From: an uncultured Gammaproteobacteria bacterium
GTDB taxonomy: Bacteria; Pseudomonadota; Gammaproteobacteria; Pseudomonadales; Azotimanducaceae
Reading direction: 5' to 3'
Length of the DNA stretch: 47,892 bases
Assembly: GCA_913049815.1 (NCBI GenBank)
Contig: CAJWYI010000003.1
Coordinates: 1 to 47,892, forward strand
The notes under the pieces were generated by a model that was not told the origin of the DNA, searched no databases, and saw only the letters and a program-made list of their open reading frames with translations. This document shows, in pieces, positions 4,373-46,296 of this stretch (positions within the stretch are counted from its first letter, which is position 1; every line of letters begins with the position of its first letter). The translations under genes and the position numbers were made by a program.

Positions 4373-5682
4373 AAAGCCACATCCATCTTAGAGCGCTTTC
4401 AGCCACCACTATGGCATTGCTTGTGGTGGTTGCGGGAATCTGCCGACCGGCCATCAGTGACGACGCAATTATTCTTGACCGAATCATTGCCGTTGTCGAT
4501 GAAGACGTCGTTCTGCAATCAGAACTGGATGCCAGGATAGCTCGGGTTAAGGCACAACTGGCTGGTGCTGATTCGCCACTACCCCCAGAGCAGATGCTCG
4601 TGAACCAGGTTCTGGAACGACTAATTCTAGAGAACCTACAGCTGAACATGGGTCACCGTGGTGGTATTCGTATCAGTGACGAACAACTCAACGAAGCCAT
4701 GCAACGTATTGCAAACCGAAACAACCTCTCCCTCCTGGATTTCCAACGCGCCCTCGCTGCAGACGGCCTGTCCTACGCAGAGATGCGTGAGGAAATCCGA
4801 CGCGAGATGATCATCGGTCACGTACAACAAAGCATGGTGAATGGCCGATTGACCATCACCGATCAGGAGATCAATAACTTTCTCGAATCAGATGTGGGTA
4901 AGACAGTGACCGCCGACGAGTACCGCGTTGGCCACATTTTGATCGCGCTCCCCGACGAACCCACCCGCGACCAGATCGCAGCAGCGAGGAATGAGGCCGA
5001 AGCCGTCGTCTCGGAATTGAGACAAGGTGCAGATTTCGCGGGGCTCGCGGCAGCAAGGTCTGCTGGTCAGAGAGCATTGACCGGAGGTGATCTGGGCTGG
5101 CGCAAGGTCGTTCAATTACCCACCATATTTGCAGACGTCGTTCCCACGCTTTCGGCAAGTGAGGTCCATGGACCCATCAAGAGTGGCAGCGGCTACCATA
5201 TCATCAAACTAATGGAAGTCCGTGGAGCAGTCTCTGAAGGTCAGATTGAACAGACCGAGGTGCGCCACGTACTCATTCAGCCCAGCGAAATCAGAACCGA
5301 ACAGGAGGCGATGGAACTCGCGGAGCTGTTGCGGGAAGAGACGATGGGTGGAAAAGCCTTTGATGAAATTGCACGATTACACTCCGATGATCCGGGCTCT
5401 GCCCTCTCAGGCGGCGATCTGGGTTGGTCTGCTGCCGGTTTGTTTGTCCCCGAATTCGAAGACCAGATGCACAGAAGCGAAATCGGCGACATCAGTCCGG
5501 TGTTCCGAACTGAACACGGCTATCACTTCCTCGAAGTCACCGGTCGACGAATCGAGGACTTCACTGAAGAGTTTAAGAGACAACAAGCTGAAAACTACAT
5601 ACGGAACCAGCGATTCGATGAGGAACTGCAGGTCTGGGCCCGTGAAGCCCGCGAAGACGCCTTTGTCGAAATCCGGATGTGA
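4369..5682 (+). CDS. surA: Periplasmic chaperone/peptidyl-prolyl isomerase SurA
   Basis: 437 aa; signal peptide, LDRIIAVVDEDVVLQSELDARI N-terminus, two parvulin repeats (ALTGGDLGW..., ALSGGDLGW...). 4-bp overlaps with lptD and rsmA. Confidence 0.93.
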   Translation: MKSHIHLRALSATTMALLVVVAGICRPAISDDAIILDRIIAVVDEDVVLQSELDARIARVKAQLAGADSPLPPEQMLVNQVLERLILENLQLNMGHRGGIRISDEQLNEAMQRIANRNNLSLLDFQRALAADGLSYAEMREEIRREMIIGHVQQSMVNGRLTITDQEINNFLESDVGKTVTADEYRVGHILIALPDEPTRDQIAAARNEAEAVVSELRQGADFAGLAAARSAGQRALTGGDLGWRKVVQLPTIFADVVPTLSASEVHGPIKSGSGYHIIKLMEVRGAVSEGQIEQTEVRHVLIQPSEIRTEQEAMELAELLREETMGGKAFDEIARLHSDDPGSALSGGDLGWSAAGLFVPEFEDQMHRSEIGDISPVFRTEHGYHFLEVTGRRIEDFTEEFKRQQAENYIRNQRFDEELQVWAREAREDAFVEIRM

Positions 5683-6428
5683 TGCGCGCCCGTAAGCGCT
5701 TCGGACAGAACTTTCTGACCGATCAACACGTCATACAACAAATCATCAGCGCAGTTTCCGCGCGACCAGATCAATCTCTTCTAGAAATCGGTCCTGGCCA
5801 AGGCGCACTGACATCTCACCTTCATGCATCGGGGTGCCGACTAAAGGTAATCGAGATCGATCGAGACCTCGCCGCGGCACTCAAAAGTCGTGGATTTGAT
5901 GTCATCGTTGGCGATGTCCTGAGACAGGATCTCACCTCAGTCACGTCTGAACCCACAAGGGTTGTTGGAAACCTCCCGTACAATATCTCAACACCACTAC
6001 TATTTAGGCTGTTCGGACTGGACAACATCGTCGACATGCACTTCATGCTGCAGAAAGAGGTCGTCGACAGGTTATCCGCCTCCCCGGGAAATCGGAACTA
6101 TGGTCGTCTCTCTGTGATGGCCCAGTTTCATTGCGACCCAGAAAAGCTGTTTGAAGTTGACCCCGTAGCATTTACTCCCGCTCCCAAGGTAACTTCCGCG
6201 GTCGTCAAGATGGTACCAAGACTCGACAAACCTGTGGTTATGCACACTATTTTCGAGAAGGTTGTCACAACAGCGTTCACGCAACGCCGTAAGACCATTC
6301 GTAATGCCTTGTCGTCAATAATCGATGAAAATACGCTCCGCTCACTGGACATAGACCCGCGTCGTCGACCTGACACGCTGTCCCTCGACGATTACGTCCG
6401 TTGCGCAAACGCCATAGGAGTTAACTGA
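5679..6428 (+). CDS. rsmA: 16S rRNA (adenine1518-N6/adenine1519-N6)-dimethyltransferase RsmA/KsgA
   Basis: RKRFGQNFLTDQHVIQQI, LLEIGPGQGALT, VVGNLPYNISTPLLFR motifs. Confidence 0.95.
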   Translation: MMRARKRFGQNFLTDQHVIQQIISAVSARPDQSLLEIGPGQGALTSHLHASGCRLKVIEIDRDLAAALKSRGFDVIVGDVLRQDLTSVTSEPTRVVGNLPYNISTPLLFRLFGLDNIVDMHFMLQKEVVDRLSASPGNRNYGRLSVMAQFHCDPEKLFEVDPVAFTPAPKVTSAVVKMVPRLDKPVVMHTIFEKVVTTAFTQRRKTIRNALSSIIDENTLRSLDIDPRRRPDTLSLDDYVRCANAIGVN

Positions 6429-6435
6429 CAACCTC

Positions 6436-7197
6436 ATGCCTTCACCCGACGACATATTCAATGACTTCACACTGGGAGAAGAGGAACGTCTATCTCTGGA
6501 CAAACACGGACACCTTTTGATCCCGGGTCTATTGACAGCGGAAACCTCTGAGCGACTGATCAACTCACTTCGTCAGGTAACTCAGTGGGGTAAGCAAGCT
6601 GTCAAAGGCCATGAACCGCAACGATTTTCTGCGGAGTTTGATGAGTACCTCGCCAGTCTCATCAATCATCCGCAAATGCTGATGCTGGCTCGCAACATTC
6701 TTGGTGAAGATATTCGATACGACCATTGCGTTTCCCTTGTCAGGCCCGCGGGTACTCCGGCGATGCCGTGGCACAGCCATGAATACGCAGAAGATGACCC
6801 TGGGCTCGGTTTTATCCGGATCTTCTTCTACATTTCAGGATTCACGAGTGATGATGGCGGGCTGAAGGTTGTTCCCGGCAGTCACCTTTATCGCGACCGG
6901 GCGATTGGAGCACGTACTGACGACGAACTTCGTGAGGGTTGGATTGCAGGAAAGCGTCATCCTGAAACAGGTGAGGAACTCAAGATCGAATACCTGAATG
7001 CAGCTCCCGGCAGCGTCATAATCATGTGGACACACGCCGCACACGGTGTCGTCGCTCGAAAGTTGGGCAGTACAACGCGGTACTGCGTCGTTTACGCTTA
7101 CAGGAACCCTGGGCGTACTTCCGATGCACGCTGGATCAGCGCAGGATTCGAATCCAGACCGCCTCCGGGCTGTGCGGCATTGATGCCGCTATACTGA
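6436..7197 (+). CDS. Phytanoyl-CoA dioxygenase (PhyH)-family protein with HSH in place of the usual HxD
   Basis: 253 aa; MPWHSHEYAEDDPGLGFIRIFFYISGFTSDDGGLKVVPGSHLYRD, C-terminal HAAHGVVARKLGSTTRYCVVYAYR. Confidence 0.75.
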   Translation: MPSPDDIFNDFTLGEEERLSLDKHGHLLIPGLLTAETSERLINSLRQVTQWGKQAVKGHEPQRFSAEFDEYLASLINHPQMLMLARNILGEDIRYDHCVSLVRPAGTPAMPWHSHEYAEDDPGLGFIRIFFYISGFTSDDGGLKVVPGSHLYRDRAIGARTDDELREGWIAGKRHPETGEELKIEYLNAAPGSVIIMWTHAAHGVVARKLGSTTRYCVVYAYRNPGRTSDARWISAGFESRPPPGCAALMPLY

Positions 7198-7242
7198 ACA
7201 GGCGACGGCATTGACGACCTTCTTGAAAAGACCGCTCCTATA

Positions 7243-8049
7243 ATGAGTACTTACGTCATTGGTGACATCCAGGGCTGCTACGATGAGTTGATGTCCCTGT
7301 TGGCACTTGTAGGTTACTCATCAGAGCAAGACGCGCTATGGCTTGCTGGCGATTTGATCAACCGTGGACCTGAAAACGTCGGGGTGATGAAGTTCTGCAT
7401 GAAAGAACCGAACTGCCAGGTCGTACTCGGAAACCACGATCTGCACTTTCTGGGGATCACAGCAGGCGTCTCGCGCGCCAGAGGAAAAGACACCGTACAC
7501 GATCTCCTAGCGTGGGATGGATGTCCTGACGTGATCGAGTGGCTTCGCCATCAGCCGCTCATTCACAAGGACAGCAACCACATCATGGTACACGCGGGTA
7601 TTCCCCCGAATTGGAACATCGACGACGCAGTCTCCTACGCCCAAGAAGTAGAAACCTGCCTGCGCGGGAATCGCTATAAAGACTTTCTGGCAGCCATGTA
7701 CGGCAACGAGCCTCGCCACTGGGATTCCCAGCTTACGGGTATGGCTCGTTTACGTCTGATAACGAATTATCTGACACGTCTTCGTTTCTGCAAAGCTGAT
7801 GGAGAAATCGAGCTGACTCACAAGACTCAGGTGGCACCGCCTGGGTTTTCACCATGGTTCGCGCTCCCGAGACCTCAGCATGAGGGGACCACCATCCTGT
7901 TCGGCCACTGGGCCGCCATCAATGGAGTGACACACCAGGCCAATGCTCAGGCACTGGATACAGGATGTGTCTGGGGTAGGCAACTTACCGCGTATCGTCT
8001 GGAAGACGGTCAACGATTCAATGTACCCGCACGGACCCAGGTCTCCTAA
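7243..8049 (+). CDS. apaH: Symmetrical bis(5'-nucleosyl)-tetraphosphatase ApaH
   Basis: [40 protein letters not shown] phosphoesterase motifs. Confidence 0.95.
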
Positions 8050-9146
8050 TGGACACTTATCTAGTCGGTGGTGCACTCCGAGACGAGTTACTGGGTCAGC
8101 CTGTCACCGATCGTGACTGGGTGGTCGTCGGCACGACCGACGAAGAAATGCGCGAAGCCGGTTATCTATCAGTCGGTAAAAGTTTCCCTGTCTACCTGCA
8201 TCCTGAAACCCGCGAAGAGTACGCCCTGGCTCGCCAGGAAAAAAAGACAGGTGCGGGACACCAGGGTTTTGTGTTTGAGACCCGCGATGTGTCTCTGGAG
8301 GAAGATCTTGTGCGCCGTGACCTCACCATCAATGCCATTGCGCAGGATACCAATGGGAACCTCATCGATCCCGTCGGAGGTCGTGCGGATATCGAAGCCA
8401 GAGTGCTGCGTCATATCAGTCCAGCATTCTCGGAGGATCCACTACGGGTCCTCCGGGTCGCGCGTTTCGCCGCACGTTTTCATAACCTAGGGTTCCGCGT
8501 CGCCGACGAGACGCTGGCGCTGATGTCTGATATCACAGCAGGCGGCGAACTAGGCACCCTGTCTGCTGAACGTGTGGTTGAAGAAGCCAGGAAAGCACTG
8601 ACGTCGCCACATCCCATCGTGTTCTTTCAGGTCCTGGAAGCCTGCGGTGCACATGCGATCCTATGGCCAGAGATTGATCTTAACGTGATTCCTCAGCCCG
8701 CTGGCCTGCAAATCGCGGCGTTACCAAGTCTGCAGTGGGCTGCCATGATGTCATCACAATCCAAGGATGTCGCTACCGAACTCGATCGCCGACTCCCACT
8801 TCCCAGTCTCTGGACACAGCAGGCACTCGACATACTACAGCTACAAACACAGTGGTCAGATGTGGTTTCTCTCTCGTCGGCAGACATCGTAGACATGTTG
8901 TATCAGCTGGACAGCTTCCGGCAGAAAGAACGATTGGAGATATCCAGCGAACTATTGGTCACCATCAACAATGATCTAGCGGAAGCGCGTGCCTTCCACG
9001 AGACCTGGATGGCGATGATGCGTTCGACACAGTCGATAAGTGCCACCGAGGTGATGGCCAAACAGCCTACTCTCCAGGGTGCCGCCATCGGTTCAGCGAT
9101 TCGGGCTGCCCGTATCGAGAAATTGCAAAGCGAGCTAAGACGTTAG
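8049..9146 (+). CDS. cca: CCA tRNA nucleotidyltransferase (appears to lack a recognisable HD domain)
   Basis: [71 protein letters not shown]. Confidence 0.92.
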
Positions 9147-9147
9147 A

Positions 9148-10449
9148 TCAGACAGTACCTTGCGTTTCCCGCTCCAACGCACGATACCCGATGTCAGATC
9201 GAAATTCGCGATTCTTGAATGTGATCTTATCAATCATCTGGTAGACACGTGCTTGTGCGTCCGCAACGGTACTTCCCATCGCAGTCACACCGAGCACTCG
9301 ACCTCCTGCTGTGACAATACCATCCTCCGTGAGCGAGGTACCCGCATGGAATACTTTTCTATCAGACGACGCGAGGGCGTCCACCGACAAACCTTGAATG
9401 AGATCTCCGGTTTTATACGAACCCGGATAGCCACCGGATGCCATTACCGCGGTCAGCGCCGGTCGGTCATCAAAGGCAATCGATTCGGGCAGCAGGTTAC
9501 CATCAATGGCGGCGTTACAGAGAGCAACCAGATCTGATTGAAGACGCATCATGATCGGTTGTGTTTCCGGATCTCCAAAACGGCAATTGAACTCAATCAC
9601 TTTCGGTTCCCCTTTGGACGAAATCATGAGTCCCGCATAAAGAAATCCTGTGTAAGGTATTCCTTCCGACGCCATACCCGCAATCGTCGGTTCGATAACC
9701 GCCTCGATAATTCGTTGGTGCACAACCTCAGTCACAACAGGTGCCGGAGAGTAGGCTCCCATGCCGCCCGTGTTAGGACCGGTATCGCCATCGTAAGCCC
9801 GTTTGTGGTCCTGACACGATGCAAACGGCAGAAAGTTGCTGCCATCCGCAATGACAATGAAACTCGCTTCTTCACCTTCCAGAAAATCCTCAATCACAAT
9901 GCGTGCACCCGCTTCACCGAAGGCGTTGCCACTCAGCATATCGTGCACCGTCTCTTCAACCTGCTCAAACGACTCCGCGATCACAACACCTTTGCCGGCT
10001 GCGAGACCATCTGCCTTAATGACAATCGGTAATGATCTCGTTTTCGCAAAAGCAAGTGCCGGCTCTGTTTCTGTAAACGTCTCGTAGGCTGCCGTTGGAA
10101 TCTGATGACGTTGTAGAAAATCCTTCGTAAAGGATTTGGATCCTTCTAGCTGCGCTGCCAATTTCCCAGGCCCAAAGCACCTAAGTCCAGCTGCATGAAA
10201 CGCGTCCACGGCTCCCGCCACCAGCGGAGCCTCGGGGCCGATAACAGTCAGATCGATAGCATTATCGGTCGCAAATGCAATCTGTGCATCAATGTTCATG
10301 ACGTCGATATCTACGTTGTGCATGTGTGGCTCAGAGACCGTTCCGGCATTCCCCGGCACGACATAAACGTCTGTGACCTGGGAAGAAAGTCCGAACCGCC
10401 ATGCCAGCGCATGTTCTCGACCACCGCTGCCTGTCACCATGATCTTCAT
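9148..10449 (-). CDS. purD: Phosphoribosylamine-glycine ligase PurD
   Basis: MKIMVTGSGGREHALAWR, HQIPTAAYETF, VIKADGLAAGKGVVIA, FNCRFGDPETQ. Confidence 0.96.
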   Translation of the reverse strand: MKIMVTGSGGREHALAWRFGLSSQVTDVYVVPGNAGTVSEPHMHNVDIDVMNIDAQIAFATDNAIDLTVIGPEAPLVAGAVDAFHAAGLRCFGPGKLAAQLEGSKSFTKDFLQRHQIPTAAYETFTETEPALAFAKTRSLPIVIKADGLAAGKGVVIAESFEQVEETVHDMLSGNAFGEAGARIVIEDFLEGEEASFIVIADGSNFLPFASCQDHKRAYDGDTGPNTGGMGAYSPAPVVTEVVHQRIIEAVIEPTIAGMASEGIPYTGFLYAGLMISSKGEPKVIEFNCRFGDPETQPIMMRLQSDLVALCNAAIDGNLLPESIAFDDRPALTAVMASGGYPGSYKTGDLIQGLSVDALASSDRKVFHAGTSLTEDGIVTAGGRVLGVTAMGSTVADAQARVYQMIDKITFKNREFRSDIGYRALERETQGTV

Positions 10450-10515
10450 TCATTTCCCCTTAACTCAAGCGAGCACAATCATCCGGTGACGTCTTTGCCT
10501 GTAGGACTCTCGATG

Positions 10516-37209: not shown

Positions 37210-38019
37210 CTAGTCTCGGTATGCATCGTGGATTCTCCGAAGATCATCACCGACAGGACGGCTGTTCCTCTTCCAATCCCCTGAATGACCCTGACAGGGG
37301 ATCGCGTCATTCAGAACCCGTTCGGCACCTGCTTTCACAGTCGCCGATGAAGGGATGTACCGAAGTGTCAGTCCGCAACGCCGTCGATCGGTCGTGTTAG
37401 GTTCAGAGCCATGAATCAACGTGCTGGTATGTAATGAGATTTCACCGGCTCGCAGCAGGTTATCGACTGGTTCACCCATTCGCTCAGCGTCTGGAATTTC
37501 CTGCTGTAATGCAACTGCACCCTTGGCTGGCTGCCACTCCACTTTACCGAGTCGATGACTGCCCGGGATGAATCGCATGGGCCCCATGTCTTCAGATACA
37601 TCATCAATCGCAAGCCACACGGTCACAGTGTCTGTGGGGCGTACCGGCCAGTAGGTCGCATCCTGGTGCCACGGAACTCGACGCTCATCTCCAGGCAATT
37701 TGCAAAAGTAATGTGTCGTCCAGCACACGAAGTCCGGACCGAGCAGATCCTCCACATAATCGAGAATCCTAGGGTGCATCGCGAGGTCCCAGATACCCTG
37801 ACACCGGTTGTGGTAGCCCATGATGGCATAAGCATTTCGCCCATCGTTCATGTTCTGCATCGATTCAAGGAGATCTGTGAAATAACGACGGGAAGCGAAG
37901 GCTTCGTCTGCGTCGAGGGCAGGTAACGGCGTGAGAAAACCATCCCGATTAAAGTCATTGATCTGTGCCGCACTAAGGGTACGTGCGTTGGTTGCATCTG
38001 ATTCCGTAAAACCAATCAT
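37210..38019 (-). CDS. Phytanoyl-CoA dioxygenase family protein (canonical HxD)
   Basis: VPWHQDATYWPVRPTDTVTVWLAIDDVSEDMGPMRFIPGSH and HGSEPNTTDRRRCGLTLRYIP. Confidence 0.88.
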   Translation of the reverse strand: MIGFTESDATNARTLSAAQINDFNRDGFLTPLPALDADEAFASRRYFTDLLESMQNMNDGRNAYAIMGYHNRCQGIWDLAMHPRILDYVEDLLGPDFVCWTTHYFCKLPGDERRVPWHQDATYWPVRPTDTVTVWLAIDDVSEDMGPMRFIPGSHRLGKVEWQPAKGAVALQQEIPDAERMGEPVDNLLRAGEISLHTSTLIHGSEPNTTDRRRCGLTLRYIPSSATVKAGAERVLNDAIPCQGHSGDWKRNSRPVGDDLRRIHDAYRD

Positions 38020-39566: not shown

Positions 39567-40127
39567 TCAGGGGAGCCGACGGGAAAATTCCTGCACAAGG
39601 CGGCTCCATTCCATCCTAAGCCACGGCGTATAGTCGTCGGGCCTCGCTATCAACGCCTGGCTTAGCCCTTCGCTAGAGATCCATTGCACCTCAGATATTT
39701 CGTTGGAATTCGGTACCACCGAGCCCACATCCACACGTCCGAGCCATACAGAACAAAGCTCATGTTCTGACCCCACATTGTCAAACTGTGCGTGATAAGT
39801 GAACTTGTACGCAAACTCGACAGCAGTGCTCACCCCCAGTTCCTGCGCCATTCGACGATGAACCGCCTCTGATAGTTCCTCACCGACACGAGGATGAGAA
39901 CAGCAGGCATTGGACCAAAAGCCAGGCCAGAGCAGCTTTTCCTGGCTACGCCGCTGCAGCAACACATCACCATCATCAGAAAACAGAAACACCGAGAAGG
40001 CTCGATGCAACACACCATTACCTTCATGGCACGCCAGTTTGCTACGAGATCCTATCACTCGATCTCGCTCATCGACGAGAATCAGCGGTTCCTCGTCAGA
40101 CGAAACGATCGGCATCGCGTCGGTCAC
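39567..40127 (-). CDS. idi: Isopentenyl-diphosphate delta-isomerase, type I
   Basis: LHRAFSVFLFSDDGDVLLQRRSQEKLLWPGFWSNACCSHPRVGEELSEAVHRRMAQELGV; start overlaps the upstream gene by 4 bp. Confidence 0.94.
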   Translation of the reverse strand: MTDAMPIVSSDEEPLILVDERDRVIGSRSKLACHEGNGVLHRAFSVFLFSDDGDVLLQRRSQEKLLWPGFWSNACCSHPRVGEELSEAVHRRMAQELGVSTAVEFAYKFTYHAQFDNVGSEHELCSVWLGRVDVGSVVPNSNEISEVQWISSEGLSQALIARPDDYTPWLRMEWSRLVQEFSRRLP

Positions 40128-42385
40128 ACAGTCACCTGAAGTGCCTGGTAACCAGCACGCGTCAGGGCACCCGCAACGTTGGCACTGCCCTCGTCATCGT
40201 CACAGAGACAAGCCACAGAACCTCCCCCACCCGCACCTGTCAGCTTCGCGCCCAAAGAACCAGCATCTCTCGCAAGCTGGACCATTCGATCCAATTCGGG
40301 ACTGGAGACAGAAATCGCGTTCAGTAGACCATGGTTGACCGTCATCATGTCTCCCAAGGTGCGGTAATCCCCATCAGTTATCGCCGCAAGACCTGTGTTG
40401 GCGACCATTTCGAAGTTGTCGAACAGTTGCTCATACAAATTATGATTGCGGCGCCACCGCTCGCGCACGCCTGCGACCATGTCTACGGTGAGGCTGGGCT
40501 CCCCTGAAATGCCAATGACGAGCCTCATCGGTGTCTCGAAATGAATAGGGTCAACCGTTGGATGTTCTCCCGACCGATACAACAGAGGGCGCCCAAAAGT
40601 AGCGATGGTGTTATCGATGCCAGAGGGCGTCCCGTGAGCTGCCTTCTCGCAACGGAATGCCATGGCATTTACCTCAGTATCGCTGAGCCCCAAACGGAAA
40701 TGTTGGTCAACCCCACGGATCACAGCGACCGCGATGGCCGCCGATCCACCTAGACCCATGGCCGCGGGAATGTTCGGCTGTACATGTACCAGAAATCGCT
40801 CGCCACCGACCCCCAACTCGTCAAACACCCCAGAGATGGCAGACCACCAGATCGAATTGGCGTGTTCCAACTGTCCATCAATATCCCAAGCAGGCACGTG
40901 AATCTCAGGTGGCGAATCAGAATCCATGACTTCGGCAATCACAGCATCCGGGATGGGTACCGCGATCGCAGGCCGTCCGTAGACGACGGCGTGCTCTCCT
41001 AACAGAATGACTTTCCCAAACGAGCGGACAACCGTCTTGCCGGACGAGTTTGACTCCTCATTCAAGTGTTTCCGCGTCTGTCCGTCCAAAAATACCGGAT
41101 CTTCTTCAAGCTCTGCCAAAATTGCATGAGCCGTCTCAATCTTGATGTCGTCTTTCTCTATCAGTCGGGATACCACTTTCTCAAAACGCGACTGCGGCAC
41201 GCCTGCAGACAAAGCAACACTTCGTGCATGCAACGACATATGGCCTTTTTGAATACCAACGGTGGACAACGCTCGTATTGCGGAGAAATTCTGTGCCAGA
41301 CCGGCACTTGCCATAACCTCTGCAAGTTCCCTGGCATTAGGCGTACCGAGCATCCGATGGGCGATATTGGCGGATGGGTTCGCACGTAGCGAACCACCTT
41401 GCGTACCCACCTTCAACGGTATCTCGATCTCCCCGTGCAGGTCACCACTTTGCGTCACCTGCCAGTGTGTCAAGGCGGTATATCGACCTCCTCGGCTTGC
41501 ATAGGCGTGGGCAGCAGCCTCAATGGCGCGCCAGTCATTACCCGTCGCAATAGCAACAGGGTCAATCCCATTCATGATCCCTTTGTTGTGTGTTGCCGCT
41601 CGATAGGGATCGATGTTGGCGAATTGTGAAGCCAGAACGATGCCATCGCGGACTTCCTCGCCAGTATAACCCTTCCCTGATAACTGATCTGTAGCGACGG
41701 TCACAGAGGCCCGGACGACCGCTCGATCTGTCAGATTCGACAGGATGCGAAGGAAGACACGTCCACCGGTCAGCGCTTCGATATCAGGTGCAATTTCTTC
41801 GCACATGGTGTTGATCATGTTGGCACCCATCGCATCACAGGTATCAACCAACAAATGGACGACCAGCATTTGAGGATTATCGGATGTGCGCGGGAAGCGT
41901 CGCACTTCGATGTCCTGTGCGCCGCCGCCTCGAGCGATCATGTTCGGATGTAACGCGTTAAGCTTTGACAGTAAATCCGCCTTGTGCGCCAAAACCTGTC
42001 GTTCACCAGCTTCCATATCTGATGGATTAACCACCTGGACCTGCCCAATCAGCAGAGACTCATCGGCCCTGGCAGTCATACCACCCCCAGTAGAAAACGT
42101 CTTGGCAGCAGACGACAGCGCGGCGACAATTGAAGGTTCTTCCACCACAAGAGGGATCAGATAATCGCGTTTATTGATCACAAAGTTAAGACCAACACCC
42201 AATGGCAACCCCATGACGCCAACAACGTTCTCAATCATCTTGTCGGCTAGTTCCGGCACCAGCAAATGGTCACCAGAGAGCAATTCCTGAACATCATCGT
42301 CATGAAGCCATTCATGTTGCCGGATGGCCGCCAGGCGATCTTCTACAGACAGCTTGTAGAACCCCGGGAATCTCGCCCTGCTCAT
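40124..42385 (-). CDS. Bifunctional class II HMG-CoA reductase (aa ~1-430) - mevalonate kinase (aa ~450-753) fusion
   Basis: Single 753-aa ORF. HMGR: VVEEPSIVAALSSAAKTF, DAMGANMINTM, THNKGIMNGIDPVAIATGNDWRAIEAAAHAYA, GHMSLHARSV. MVK: FGKVILLGEHAVVYGRPAIAVPI, PAAMGLGGSAAIAVAV, HGTPSGIDNTIATFG, KLTGAGGGGSVACL. Confidence 0.94.
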   Translation of the reverse strand: MSRARFPGFYKLSVEDRLAAIRQHEWLHDDDVQELLSGDHLLVPELADKMIENVVGVMGLPLGVGLNFVINKRDYLIPLVVEEPSIVAALSSAAKTFSTGGGMTARADESLLIGQVQVVNPSDMEAGERQVLAHKADLLSKLNALHPNMIARGGGAQDIEVRRFPRTSDNPQMLVVHLLVDTCDAMGANMINTMCEEIAPDIEALTGGRVFLRILSNLTDRAVVRASVTVATDQLSGKGYTGEEVRDGIVLASQFANIDPYRAATHNKGIMNGIDPVAIATGNDWRAIEAAAHAYASRGGRYTALTHWQVTQSGDLHGEIEIPLKVGTQGGSLRANPSANIAHRMLGTPNARELAEVMASAGLAQNFSAIRALSTVGIQKGHMSLHARSVALSAGVPQSRFEKVVSRLIEKDDIKIETAHAILAELEEDPVFLDGQTRKHLNEESNSSGKTVVRSFGKVILLGEHAVVYGRPAIAVPIPDAVIAEVMDSDSPPEIHVPAWDIDGQLEHANSIWWSAISGVFDELGVGGERFLVHVQPNIPAAMGLGGSAAIAVAVIRGVDQHFRLGLSDTEVNAMAFRCEKAAHGTPSGIDNTIATFGRPLLYRSGEHPTVDPIHFETPMRLVIGISGEPSLTVDMVAGVRERWRRNHNLYEQLFDNFEMVANTGLAAITDGDYRTLGDMMTVNHGLLNAISVSSPELDRMVQLARDAGSLGAKLTGAGGGGSVACLCDDDEGSANVAGALTRAGYQALQVTV

Positions 42386-43395
42386 TCTGACTCCTGTATG
42401 AACCTATCTGCGGACACGAGGTCGGTACGGTACCCCGCGTTTTCCAGTTTTTCGTTCAATGCCCTGAGTTCACCCACTTCCCGTACCACCACCATGCCAA
42501 AGTCACCTCCGCCCGCACCTGAGGGCTTATAGATTCCACCTGACCGCATAACGAAGTCGCGTAATTCTACGTGAATGTCGGTATAGAATCCTGTTCGACT
42601 TCCGTCACTAAGCGCTTTGAGACATATGTCCATCTCTGCAAGTCCGCCAATGAACTCATCAGCGCGGAGACCTCGTCGGCTCATTGACGTCGCTACTCTG
42701 CCAAGTGGATGCATCAACTCGTCGTAGAGTGTTGGCTCACGTTCCTTGAACCGTAGCATCCGATCCAGGTAGCTGACGGTTCCTGCTCCCCGACCGGTCC
42801 AAACAAATCCAAACACAAGACCATGCGGTAGACTCGAAACTTCAGGTTCAGCAACAGTCCGATACCGTATCAGGTCATCCATCAACGCCACCGCGATATC
42901 GGCACCACTCCCAAGACCACCCTGGAATCGGTGGTGGCATGCCACGGCAAGCCGCACATATTCTGAATCGGCCCACCCTGTCGGCTTCGGAAACAGCGTT
43001 TTGAGCAGCGCGGCGGTCAACGCAGCGCTACCACCAACACCCAGCTTTTTCGGCTCACCATCGATTGATTGGAAAAAAGCGCGTGTATCCAGACACAACC
43101 CATCTTCGGGCACAGAAACCGGCAGGCCTCGGCGGTGGAGCTCGTCATAGACAGCCTTCGCAAGCGGGATTTCCTGCATCGGCAAAGCCACTTCCACATC
43201 TGATCGTATGATCCACCGATCACTACATGCCGAAGACACGATGGCACGCTGGGGCACGGGCATCACTAGCGCTGGGGCGCCTTCTAAAACGGCATATTCG
43301 CCGGTCAGGAACAACTTTCCAGGTGCAGACGTGTTCATCCGTTGGACAAAGAGAGATTCAACGTGAATATGACCAGTGTACCCGTGGCTCACCAC
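42382..43395 (-). CDS. Phosphomevalonate kinase, GHMP family (likely start ATG 43338, MNTSAPGKLFLTGEYAVLEG)
   Basis: APGKLFLTGEYAVLEGAPALVMPV, KKLGVGGSAALTAALL, GGLGSGADIAVAL, YKPSGAGGGDFGMVVV; 4-bp overlap with HMGR-MVK. Confidence 0.88.
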   Translation of the reverse strand: MVSHGYTGHIHVESLFVQRMNTSAPGKLFLTGEYAVLEGAPALVMPVPQRAIVSSACSDRWIIRSDVEVALPMQEIPLAKAVYDELHRRGLPVSVPEDGLCLDTRAFFQSIDGEPKKLGVGGSAALTAALLKTLFPKPTGWADSEYVRLAVACHHRFQGGLGSGADIAVALMDDLIRYRTVAEPEVSSLPHGLVFGFVWTGRGAGTVSYLDRMLRFKEREPTLYDELMHPLGRVATSMSRRGLRADEFIGGLAEMDICLKALSDGSRTGFYTDIHVELRDFVMRSGGIYKPSGAGGGDFGMVVVREVGELRALNEKLENAGYRTDLVSADRFIQESE

Positions 43396-44455
43396 CTATA
43401 CCGGACTCGATGACGTTTCGTACACCCGGTAACTGCGCAAGTTCTCTGTTGCAGACAGCAACATCATCCTGATGGCAAATGACTTTGACCTGCGGACCTG
43501 CATCAATGGTATAGAAAACCCGTCTCCCTGCCTCACGCCAGCCTTCCACCGCGTTCACGACAGCCATCGTGCCAGGGTTCCAATAAATGATCGGCGGTCT
43601 CGCAGCCATGATGGCCGCATGCATCTTCATACAGCTCCGAATGCTCACCGTCGCAAGACCGTCAAAGTCGGCTTCTGCAATTGATCGATGTGCTTCGATC
43701 ATATCGGCAGGATGTTGTTGGACCCATTCGGCATAGTACGGCGATGTGTCCGCGGTCCGTTGCATCGCCTGCGTCGAGCCCACCGACTTTGCTGCAGTAT
43801 CTGTGACGGCAATTAGAACCGTTAGTGGCCAATGCGTCATATCAACGTCAATCGGAACCGCTGCGCCGTCACCGTCTGCTGAGATCGCCACAAAGCCACC
43901 ATACACCGACCTTGCGGCAGAGCCGGATCCAAGTCGGGCTAGGCGTGAAACATCTGCCGGTTCCAGGCCAATGCCGCATAGACGATTGATTCCAATCGCG
44001 AGCGCTGCGAACCCCGATGCTGAAGATGCCAAACCGGCGCCAGTAGGAAAGCTATTGGTCGAGATCACATGTACCGGTCCTATGCCGACATACATCGTCC
44101 GGACCCGGTCGATAAAGGATTGAATTCGATCAACGCCAGTCCCGACAGACTCTCCATTCAGCCAAATCTCATCATTAGGTCCGGCTCCCTGTTTCATAAT
44201 GGTCGTCGTTTTCAAAGCGTCCAGGCTGATTGAGACCGAACCCGTGGCAGGAAGGTTGGCGGCTTCATCTGCCTTCCCCCAATACTTGACCAGCGCGACA
44301 TTGGCATTCGCTTCAATATGCAATGCATCAATCATGAGGGAGCACCTCGCACATCCGCTTGGATTCTTGACTTTGAACGGCAGACATTGGGGGCCAGAGT
44401 CCCGCGTAAGAACAGTACGCTCATTGTACGGGAGCAACCTCGCATTCGAAATCAA
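43358..44455 (-). CDS. mvaD: Diphosphomevalonate decarboxylase (likely start ATG 44335, MIDALHIEANANVALVKYWGK)
   Basis: ANANVALVKYWGKADEAANLPATGSVSISLD, SFPTGAGLASSASGFAALA, GSGSAARSVYGGFV, YTIDAGPQVKVIC. Confidence 0.93.
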   Translation of the reverse strand: MISNARLLPYNERTVLTRDSGPQCLPFKVKNPSGCARCSLMIDALHIEANANVALVKYWGKADEAANLPATGSVSISLDALKTTTIMKQGAGPNDEIWLNGESVGTGVDRIQSFIDRVRTMYVGIGPVHVISTNSFPTGAGLASSASGFAALAIGINRLCGIGLEPADVSRLARLGSGSAARSVYGGFVAISADGDGAAVPIDVDMTHWPLTVLIAVTDTAAKSVGSTQAMQRTADTSPYYAEWVQQHPADMIEAHRSIAEADFDGLATVSIRSCMKMHAAIMAARPPIIYWNPGTMAVVNAVEGWREAGRRVFYTIDAGPQVKVICHQDDVAVCNRELAQLPGVRNVIESGIGGEPRVHWSYSR

Positions 44456-44530: not shown

Positions 44531-45430
44531 TTGCCACCATCTATTCCATCCGCATCGTCAGAATTCGTCGATCGGATTGAAGCGTATCGATCCCGAGTCG
44601 AAGATTTCATCGCGCGTCAGCTACCTGGCACCGAAGCCCCTTTCCATCAGGCTTTGAGATACGCAGCTCTCGGTGAGGGCAAGCGCGTACGTCCATTGTT
44701 GACGTATGCGACTGGTGAAGCGCTGGGTATTAAAAGTGACATCCTTGACTATCCGGCGGCCGCGCTCGAGATCATGCATACGTATTCACTCGTCCACGAC
44801 GACCTGCCGGCGATGGATGACGACAACCTGCGTCGAGGGCGCCCTACCGTTCACGTTGTCTGGGACGAGGCGACCGCGATTCTTGTGGGTGATGCGCTAC
44901 AGACTCTTGCGTTCGAGGTCCTGACACGCGCGCCAGTGGATCCATTGATCATTCGAGATTGGATATCGATCCTAGCTGTCGGTGCCGGTCAGGGTGGCAT
45001 GGTCGGTGGGCAGATCCTCGATATGGCAGGTGAACAGCGAACGCTCAACGAGCAGGAGCTGCGTCAAATGCACGATGGAAAGACGGGGAAACTCATCAGC
45101 GCTGGCATTCTCATGGCTGCGCGGGCCGGCAATGCCTCAGAGTCTGTGACGGCGTGCCTCGCGGAGTATGGGAAGCATATCGGTCTGGCATTCCAGATTC
45201 GAGATGACATTCTCGATGTCACTCAATCAACAGATATGCTGGGTAAACCCCAGGGTTCAGATGCTGGCAATAGGAAATCAACTTTTGTGACCCTCCTAGG
45301 TTTGGACGAATCGACGCAACAATTGAAGGCGCACTATCAATCGGCCATCCAATCGATTGGTCGCATCTCTCAACCCGCACCGGACGGTCTTGTTTATTTG
45401 GCATCCCACATAGTCCAGCGCAACAAGTAG
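44531..45430 (+). CDS. ispA: (2E,6E)-farnesyl diphosphate synthase-type short-chain prenyltransferase, TTG start
   Basis: LGEGKRVRPLLTYATGEAL, HTYSLVHDDLPAMDDDNLRRGRPTVHV (first Asp-rich motif), DGKTGKLISAG, FQIRDDILDVTQ. Confidence 0.93.
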   Translation: MPPSIPSASSEFVDRIEAYRSRVEDFIARQLPGTEAPFHQALRYAALGEGKRVRPLLTYATGEALGIKSDILDYPAAALEIMHTYSLVHDDLPAMDDDNLRRGRPTVHVVWDEATAILVGDALQTLAFEVLTRAPVDPLIIRDWISILAVGAGQGGMVGGQILDMAGEQRTLNEQELRQMHDGKTGKLISAGILMAARAGNASESVTACLAEYGKHIGLAFQIRDDILDVTQSTDMLGKPQGSDAGNRKSTFVTLLGLDESTQQLKAHYQSAIQSIGRISQPAPDGLVYLASHIVQRNK

Positions 45431-45438
45431 ATGACGGG

Positions 45439-46296
45439 TCAATCGATCTCTGGCGACCTCAAGCCTGAGGTGCCGTAATCAGAGTTTGGGTCATAAATCA
45501 CTTCACCGGATCGTGTGAAGGGGACCGCATGTGCCCACGTGCCCCCCGTTGACCGCTGGATGACTTCACCGCTGTATTGCGCAAGGTAAGCACGTCTCGG
45601 GGCATCTGTCGTATTAGCTGTACTACGGTGTAACGTGGTGCTCGAGAATACGACAATGCTGCCGGCAGGTACCTCGATCAGTTCACCAGGGTCGCTGCCT
45701 TCATAACCGACAAGATCGTTGGTTTCCGGCTCTGCTCTGTGTGGTAACACCTGGTTGCGAGTGTTAGCACGGTCATGAGGGAGAACAAAGATGCTGCCAT
45801 TGGCTTCACTCATATCGTCGAGCGCACACCAGCATGTCAGATATGGTCGATGTCGTGTCTCAGGATCCGAGAATTTCACATAGCCGCCATCCTGATGCCA
45901 CGCGAACTTCATGCCCTGCTCTGCACCTTTCACCACCCACTGCTCCACAAACAGATACGATTCGCCCCCCAGAAACGCACGGGTGATGTCGGCCATCAAC
46001 TGGCCGAACAGAAACGATGGTAAGCGGCGACTCTCTCGATAACGCCCGCTGATGAAGTAGCGTTTGCCACGGTGTGTGATCCCGTAGGTTTCGCGACCTC
46101 GTGCCTTCATGCTCCCATCGACGTAACCCACGAAATACGAACATTCTTCGCGCAGCATCATAAGCGTTGGCTCATCCAACGCTTGCCGCAGAATTGTGTA
46201 TCCCTGTTCCTCAAATGCCCGCTGGTGTTGTACCGTAATCTGCATTGGTGCCTCCGAGGCGGACGCTAACACGCCCGTGCTCAAGCTGCTATGCAA
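45439..46296 (-). CDS. Phytanoyl-CoA dioxygenase family protein (canonical HxD; likely start 46245)
   Basis: MKFAWHQDGGYVKFSDPETRHRPYLTCWCALDDMSEANGSIFVLPHD and SSTTLHRSTANTTDAPRRAYLAQYS. Confidence 0.88.
   Translation of the reverse strand: MHSSLSTGVLASASEAPMQITVQHQRAFEEQGYTILRQALDEPTLMMLREECSYFVGYVDGSMKARGRETYGITHRGKRYFISGRYRESRRLPSFLFGQLMADITRAFLGGESYLFVEQWVVKGAEQGMKFAWHQDGGYVKFSDPETRHRPYLTCWCALDDMSEANGSIFVLPHDRANTRNQVLPHRAEPETNDLVGYEGSDPGELIEVPAGSIVVFSSTTLHRSTANTTDAPRRAYLAQYSGEVIQRSTGGTWAHAVPFTRSGEVIYDPNSDYGTSGLRSPEID

Follow-up and report, generated by a model that had tools for sequence, protein, structure and literature searches.

Closest described systems

The mevalonate pathway is controlled at HMG-CoA reductase (HMGR). 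Natural fusions are represented in the literature on bacterial isoprenoid pathways by MvaE and IspDF (PMC13001223, PMC10070635, PMC10663253). MvaE of Enterococcus faecalis is an acetoacetyl-CoA thiolase/HMG-CoA reductase of the mevalonate pathway, built on a class II HMGR (PMC10070635), and IspDF is a widespread fusion that belongs to the MEP pathway and joins non-consecutive steps (PMC13001223). Among stand-alone enzymes, the P. mevalonii HMGR is a class II, degradative, NAD-dependent enzyme, and the mevalonate kinases (MVK) of L. major (2hfs) and M. mazei (6mdf) display the GHMP fold.

The protein described here resembles MvaE in being a natural two-enzyme fusion with a class II HMGR, but its partner is a C-terminal mevalonate kinase placed behind the HMGR flap instead of an N-terminal thiolase, and the bacterial groups differ. 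In contrast to IspDF, it belongs to the mevalonate pathway and combines consecutive steps. Its HMGR half shares fold and catalytic residues with the P. mevalonii enzyme (about 48 % identity), which differs in being stand-alone and catabolic and in carrying Asp146. Its kinase half shares the GHMP fold with 2hfs and 6mdf, its best solved relatives, which are stand-alone and about 30 % identical. The fusion brings together two well-known families in a new way. Searches of openly accessible papers on bacterial isoprenoid pathways found no description of an HMGR-MVK fusion, and it is provisionally regarded as previously undescribed. The original prediction, which knew of no characterised example, holds to that extent, although the architecture recurs in several phyla.

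The fusion gene

The window, i.e. the whole stretch of DNA analysed, was a 47.9-kb contig from a genome of 2.78 Mb (218 contigs, 86 % complete). The fusion and its parts were located as follows:

40124-42385, minus strand: HMGR/MVK fusion gene, 753 codons (ATG at 42385-42383, TGA stop at 40124-40126)
41105-42385, minus strand: class II HMG-CoA reductase domain, residues 1-427 (TIGR00532 over residues 2-387, 402 bits against a cut-off of 260; 48 % identity to P. mevalonii HMGR)
41045-41104, minus strand: flexible linker, residues about 428-447 (variable in length and sequence; pLDDT below 50 at 429-447)
40127-41044, minus strand: GHMP mevalonate kinase domain, residues 448-753 (TIGR00549 over residues 457-726, 233 bits against a cut-off of 163; fold matching 2hfs and 6mdf)

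The uninterrupted 753-codon frame that had been predicted at 40124-42385 was recovered, on the minus strand; stops were abundant on the plus strand across the same interval. The chance of such an open frame given the base composition was ~3e-14. A complete class II HMGR and a complete GHMP MVK, also predicted, were both found above curated cut-offs, and Pfam families PF00368, PF00288 and PF08544 agreed with these domain calls. The quoted HMGR and MVK motifs were present, as was the quoted linker LDGQTRKHLNEESNSSGK (residues 433-450). HMGR began at residue 2, and a profile search detected no MvaE-type N-terminal thiolase domain in the chain.

The fragmented source assembly, together with the occurrence of adjacent unfused HMGR-MVK pairs elsewhere, might suggest that a sequencing or assembly error joined two neighbouring genes. 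However, the closest relative (86 % identical, from a separate assembly) displayed an identical junction, the single frame recurred across many independently assembled genomes, some of them from named strains (Wenzhouxiangella, Dyella, Rhodanobacter) and some consisting of a single contig, and the unfused pairs carry an HMGR of another clade. Dozens of independent single-ORF copies refute an assembly error or missed stop and, with this relative, rule out the merging of two genes by error at 41030-41110, as the original prediction had argued; the chance of such an error is negligible. On sequence evidence, the 753-codon frame is real and no assembly artefact, and a genuine fusion of two consecutive mevalonate-pathway enzymes is supported.

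The MVK half had also been claimed to lack an initiator Met. Before the MVK motif there was no ATG; the linker did contain two in-frame TTG codons (Leu433, Leu441), so a complete lack of possible starts would be a slight overstatement. These codons, the flexibility of the linker and a Met in the linker stretch of 29 of the 134 distinct full-length fusions that formed the conservation set would be compatible with a chain that is cleaved, or a kinase also made from an internal start, the two enzymes then working apart. A GAGGAG near the linker was followed by no start codon at the correct spacing. Since the window contained no well-placed ribosome-binding site and an internal start was not conserved (105 of the 134 copies displayed no Met in the examined stretch), separate enzymes are considered very unlikely.

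The mevalonate operon

Neighbouring genes were assigned as follows:

44531-45430, plus strand: farnesyl-diphosphate-synthase-type prenyl transferase, divergent from the mevalonate operon (NF045485, 318 bits, above the cut-off of 275)
43358-44455, minus strand: diphosphomevalonate decarboxylase, MVD (TIGR01240, 254 bits, above the cut-off of 171)
42382-43395, minus strand: GHMP kinase, most likely phosphomevalonate kinase, PMK (TIGR01220, 67 bits, below the cut-off of 166; assigned by position)
39567-40127, minus strand: isopentenyl-diphosphate isomerase type 1, IDI (NF002995, 172 bits, and TIGR02150, 152 bits, both above cut-off)

The minus-strand operon was tight, in the order MVD, PMK-like GHMP kinase, fusion, IDI. 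The TGA stop of the PMK-like gene overlapped the fusion ATG (ATGA, 4 nt) and the GTG start of IDI overlapped the fusion stop (GTGA, 4 nt). A classical mevalonate pathway set was present in the window, with MVK, MVD and IDI above their cut-offs and PMK assigned by similarity and position. A motif scan, which is a weak test, revealed neither HMG-CoA synthase nor thiolase near the operon. The order MVD-PMK-fusion-IDI was displayed by 46 of 71 loci with sufficient flank; the others were fusion-IDI (13), MVD-PMK-fusion (11) and PMK-fusion-IDI (1). PMK adjoined the fusion in all except 13 of the 71.

Three other ORFs of the window, at 6436-7197 (plus strand), 37210-38019 (minus strand) and 45439-46296 (minus strand), resembled phytanoyl-CoA-dioxygenase-type (Fe/2-oxoglutarate) enzymes by eye; two of them flank the mevalonate region.

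Catalytic residues and predicted fold

Residues of interest, with their conservation among the 134 fusions, were the following:

42137-42139, minus strand: Glu83 codon, HMGR catalytic (kept across the 134 copies, one ambiguous X)
41948-41950, minus strand: His146 codon, equivalent of P. mevalonii HMGR Asp146 by alignment
41582-41584, minus strand: Lys268 codon, HMGR catalytic (134/134)
41534-41536, minus strand: Asp284 codon, HMGR catalytic (134/134)
41105-41260, minus strand: C-terminal HMGR flap, about residues 376-427, by alignment to P. mevalonii HMGR
41240-41242, minus strand: His382 codon, HMGR catalytic, borne on this flap (134/134)
41012-41014, minus strand: Lys458 codon, MVK (134/134)
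40742-40744, minus strand: Ser548 codon, MVK (134/134)
Glu580, minus strand: MVK residue (134/134)
40613-40615, minus strand: Asp591 codon, MVK (134/134)

The window's fusion displayed the Glu/Lys/Asp/His catalytic tetrad of class II HMGRs as well as the ATP-binding loop and catalytic Lys/Ser/Glu/Asp of GHMP mevalonate kinases. Asp146 is a determinant of NADH use in P. mevalonii HMGR (PMC10070635). In the HMGR of Ruegeria pomeroyi, Asp154, taken here to be its equivalent, fixes the NADH preference, and its change to Lys opens NADPH use (PMC12292504). Asp146 was retained in P. mevalonii-type stand-alone and in unfused KSB1 HMGRs. The fusion HMGR would use NADPH, because this residue is replaced by His in 131 of the 134 fusions.

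An AlphaFold2 model built with 64 homologues contained two confident domains (mean pLDDT 88, pTM 0.60). Foldseek matched the HMGR half to P. mevalonii HMGR and the kinase half to the L. major and M. mazei kinases. As modelled, the chain shows two domains without fixed mutual arrangement or defined contact. The distance between the fixed columns flanking the linker ranged from 24 to 63 residues in the 134 copies.

The kinase was joined immediately after the HMGR flap; in the E. faecalis HMGR, the flap (371-421) closes over the active site upon ligand binding (PMC10070635). A kinase sitting right behind the mobile element that gates product release, the consecutive nature of the two steps and the strong conservation would all suit true substrate channelling, mevalonate being handed directly between sites as the flap opens. 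The variable linker, its disorder in the model and the lack of a predicted fixed interface argue against such a transfer, which appears unlikely. Of the two benefits put forward in the original prediction, co-regulation is well supported by a single polypeptide encoded in an operon of overlapping genes, while channelling is only possible in view of the disordered linker and the pTM of 0.60. A physical channel is less well supported than co-expression, tethering and a forward pull on the reversible HMGR, because the model predicts two folded domains without fixed arrangement.

Distribution of the fusion

Of the 101 genomes sampled from the window's own family, 59 (the window's included) displayed a full-length uninterrupted fusion, the copies being 48-86 % identical to that of the window; in three further genomes it was broken at contig ends (62 in total). 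Among 84,980 species genomes scanned, 575 relatives were matched; the best 80 of these 575 were examined, and nearly all were full-length fusions. They originated from Wenzhouxiangella, Dyella, Rhodanobacter, Nevskia, Marinobacter gelidimuriae, an HTCC2089-like MAG and others.

Incidence varied among phyla. The fusion was present in 38 of 40 genomes of Calditrichota (the phylum of the Calditrichaceae locus), some as contig-end fragments, in six of 82 genomes of the KSB1-type phylum, in three of 199 Acidobacteriota (the phylum of the Thermoanaerobaculales locus) and in two of 198 genomes of the Bacteroidota-like phylum of the Melioribacteraceae locus. It was rare in a Pseudomonadota-wide sample (2/398), and nine of 369 genomes of the class sample carried it at full length, the window counted. 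No plasmid-borne copies were found, plasmids harbouring only stand-alone HMGRs. By this distribution, the HMGR-MVK architecture is old and conserved, occurs in several phyla and is no single-genome oddity.

The Thermoanaerobaculales genome (G485) carried an extra stand-alone mevalonate-kinase-like gene (L219, 2356-3264, minus strand) on another contig than the fusion, 30 % identical to the fused kinase.

Relation to the MEP pathway

Among the 101 family genomes, the fusion was present in 62 and the MEP-pathway enzyme Dxr in 32, and the two never co-occurred (Fisher p 7e-20, uncorrected for kinship). Eight apparent overlaps proved to be weak GHMP-kinase cross-hits, none above 44 bits. Seven genomes (e.g. 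G004, G012, G017, G042) displayed neither, being incomplete or using another isoprenoid route. Because fusion and Dxr never co-occur there, the fusion is, judged from gene content, the biosynthetic isoprenoid route within the window's family, where it replaces the MEP pathway.

The best-scoring family model for the HMGR half, TIGR00532, is named 'HMGR, degradative', and the P. mevalonii enzyme is among its closest solved relatives, as would be expected of an HMGR serving mevalonate oxidation as in P. mevalonii. The window's fusion, however, displays His146 in place of Asp146, its operon makes IPP, its HMGR is fused to MVK instead of being encoded by a stand-alone gene, and no family genome with the fusion also holds Dxr. 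A degradative role is thus highly improbable, and the biosynthetic one is retained.

In the gammaproteobacteria and Calditrichota that carry it, the fusion mostly stands in for the MEP route. The exclusivity is not universal outside the family, because several fusion genomes also bear Dxr: four of 15 other fusion genomes (Marinobacter gelidimuriae, Rhodanobacter lindaniclasticus, a KSB1 MAG and a Melioribacteraceae MAG) and, above cut-off, three fusion-bearing Calditrichota (G518, G531, G533). Another Calditrichota genome (G519) displayed Dxr and no fusion.

Origin and unfused pairs

The HMGR halves of 29 diverse fusions formed one clade (bootstrap 100, SH-aLRT 99; 98 % of bootstrap trees), and the MVK halves fell on one side of a branch (SH-aLRT 90, not starred). 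The simplest reading of the trees is therefore that a single fusion event probably occurred, followed by vertical descent and transfer. Deep branches within the fused clade were weak.

Five genomes of the KSB1 phylum carried adjacent unfused HMGR and MVK genes (L213, at 5835-10509, L214, L215, at 5256-9457, L216 and L218). As in the fusion, HMGR lies directly upstream of a related MVK; unlike it, the genes are separate, the HMGR is of another clade and the pair is tied to AcnX/UbiD/IPK archaeal-type genes. Direct descent of the fusion from these pairs was rejected as a shown ancestry, their HMGRs grouping with P. mevalonii-type enzymes outside the fused clade (95/86). They could illustrate how such a fusion forms and are no evidence of ancestry. 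One genome (G794) contained a second, stand-alone HMGR (L217, 6846-8105, plus strand), which grouped in one clade with the unfused operon copy of that genome.

In two KSB1 loci inspected closely, UbiX and UbiD-family genes came after the HMGR-MVK pair, and in the same genomes the large and small subunits of AcnX adjoined isopentenyl phosphate kinase. AcnX (L233-L237) was found in all five unfused-pair genomes and in none of the six KSB1 fusion genomes. It matched 7cnr/7cns at 366 bits versus 223 bits for hydroxyproline dehydratases, 7cns being the archaeal phosphomevalonate dehydratase TkPMDh. The mevalonate pathway of these bacteria is apparently of the archaeal (anhydromevalonate phosphate) type and complete. 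This route was termed unique to archaea (PMC10040528) and, according to a citation in PMC13001223, has been reported in Chloroflexota; the KSB1-type phylum would, if this is true, add a further one.

Proposed function and meaning

The fusion is best read as a bifunctional biosynthetic HMGR/MVK that would supply isoprenoids instead of the MEP pathway, with tethering pulling HMGR forward, and that would have arisen once and then spread; we put the probability of this reading at about 0.87. We infer both enzyme activities, as well as the kinetic benefit of tethering. The N-terminal class II HMGR would reduce HMG-CoA to mevalonate, NADPH being its probable cofactor, and the kinase at the C terminus would convert mevalonate to mevalonate 5-phosphate, which PMK, MVD and IDI of the operon would take on to IPP/DMAPP. 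This route, instead of the MEP pathway, would meet the isoprenoid needs of the cell. The flexible tether to the HMGR flap would fix the enzymes at 1:1 and raise the local kinase concentration; by drawing off mevalonate, the kinase would make the reversible HMGR run forward, with little diffusible mevalonate lost. The fusion would have spread both within and between phyla. A bolder and rather doubtful extension is that the kinase, carried on the moving flap, couples phosphorylation mechanically or kinetically to reduction, such that free mevalonate never builds up.

As a conserved natural fusion, the bifunctional protein offers a ready-made module for metabolic engineering, a single gene leading from HMG-CoA to mevalonate 5-phosphate and probably using NADPH. 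Comparing the same two domains in joined and separate form would put the question of why enzymes fuse to a direct test. The fusion would also mark bacteria that rely on the mevalonate route rather than the MEP route, and a single family offers many natural pairs of presence and absence.
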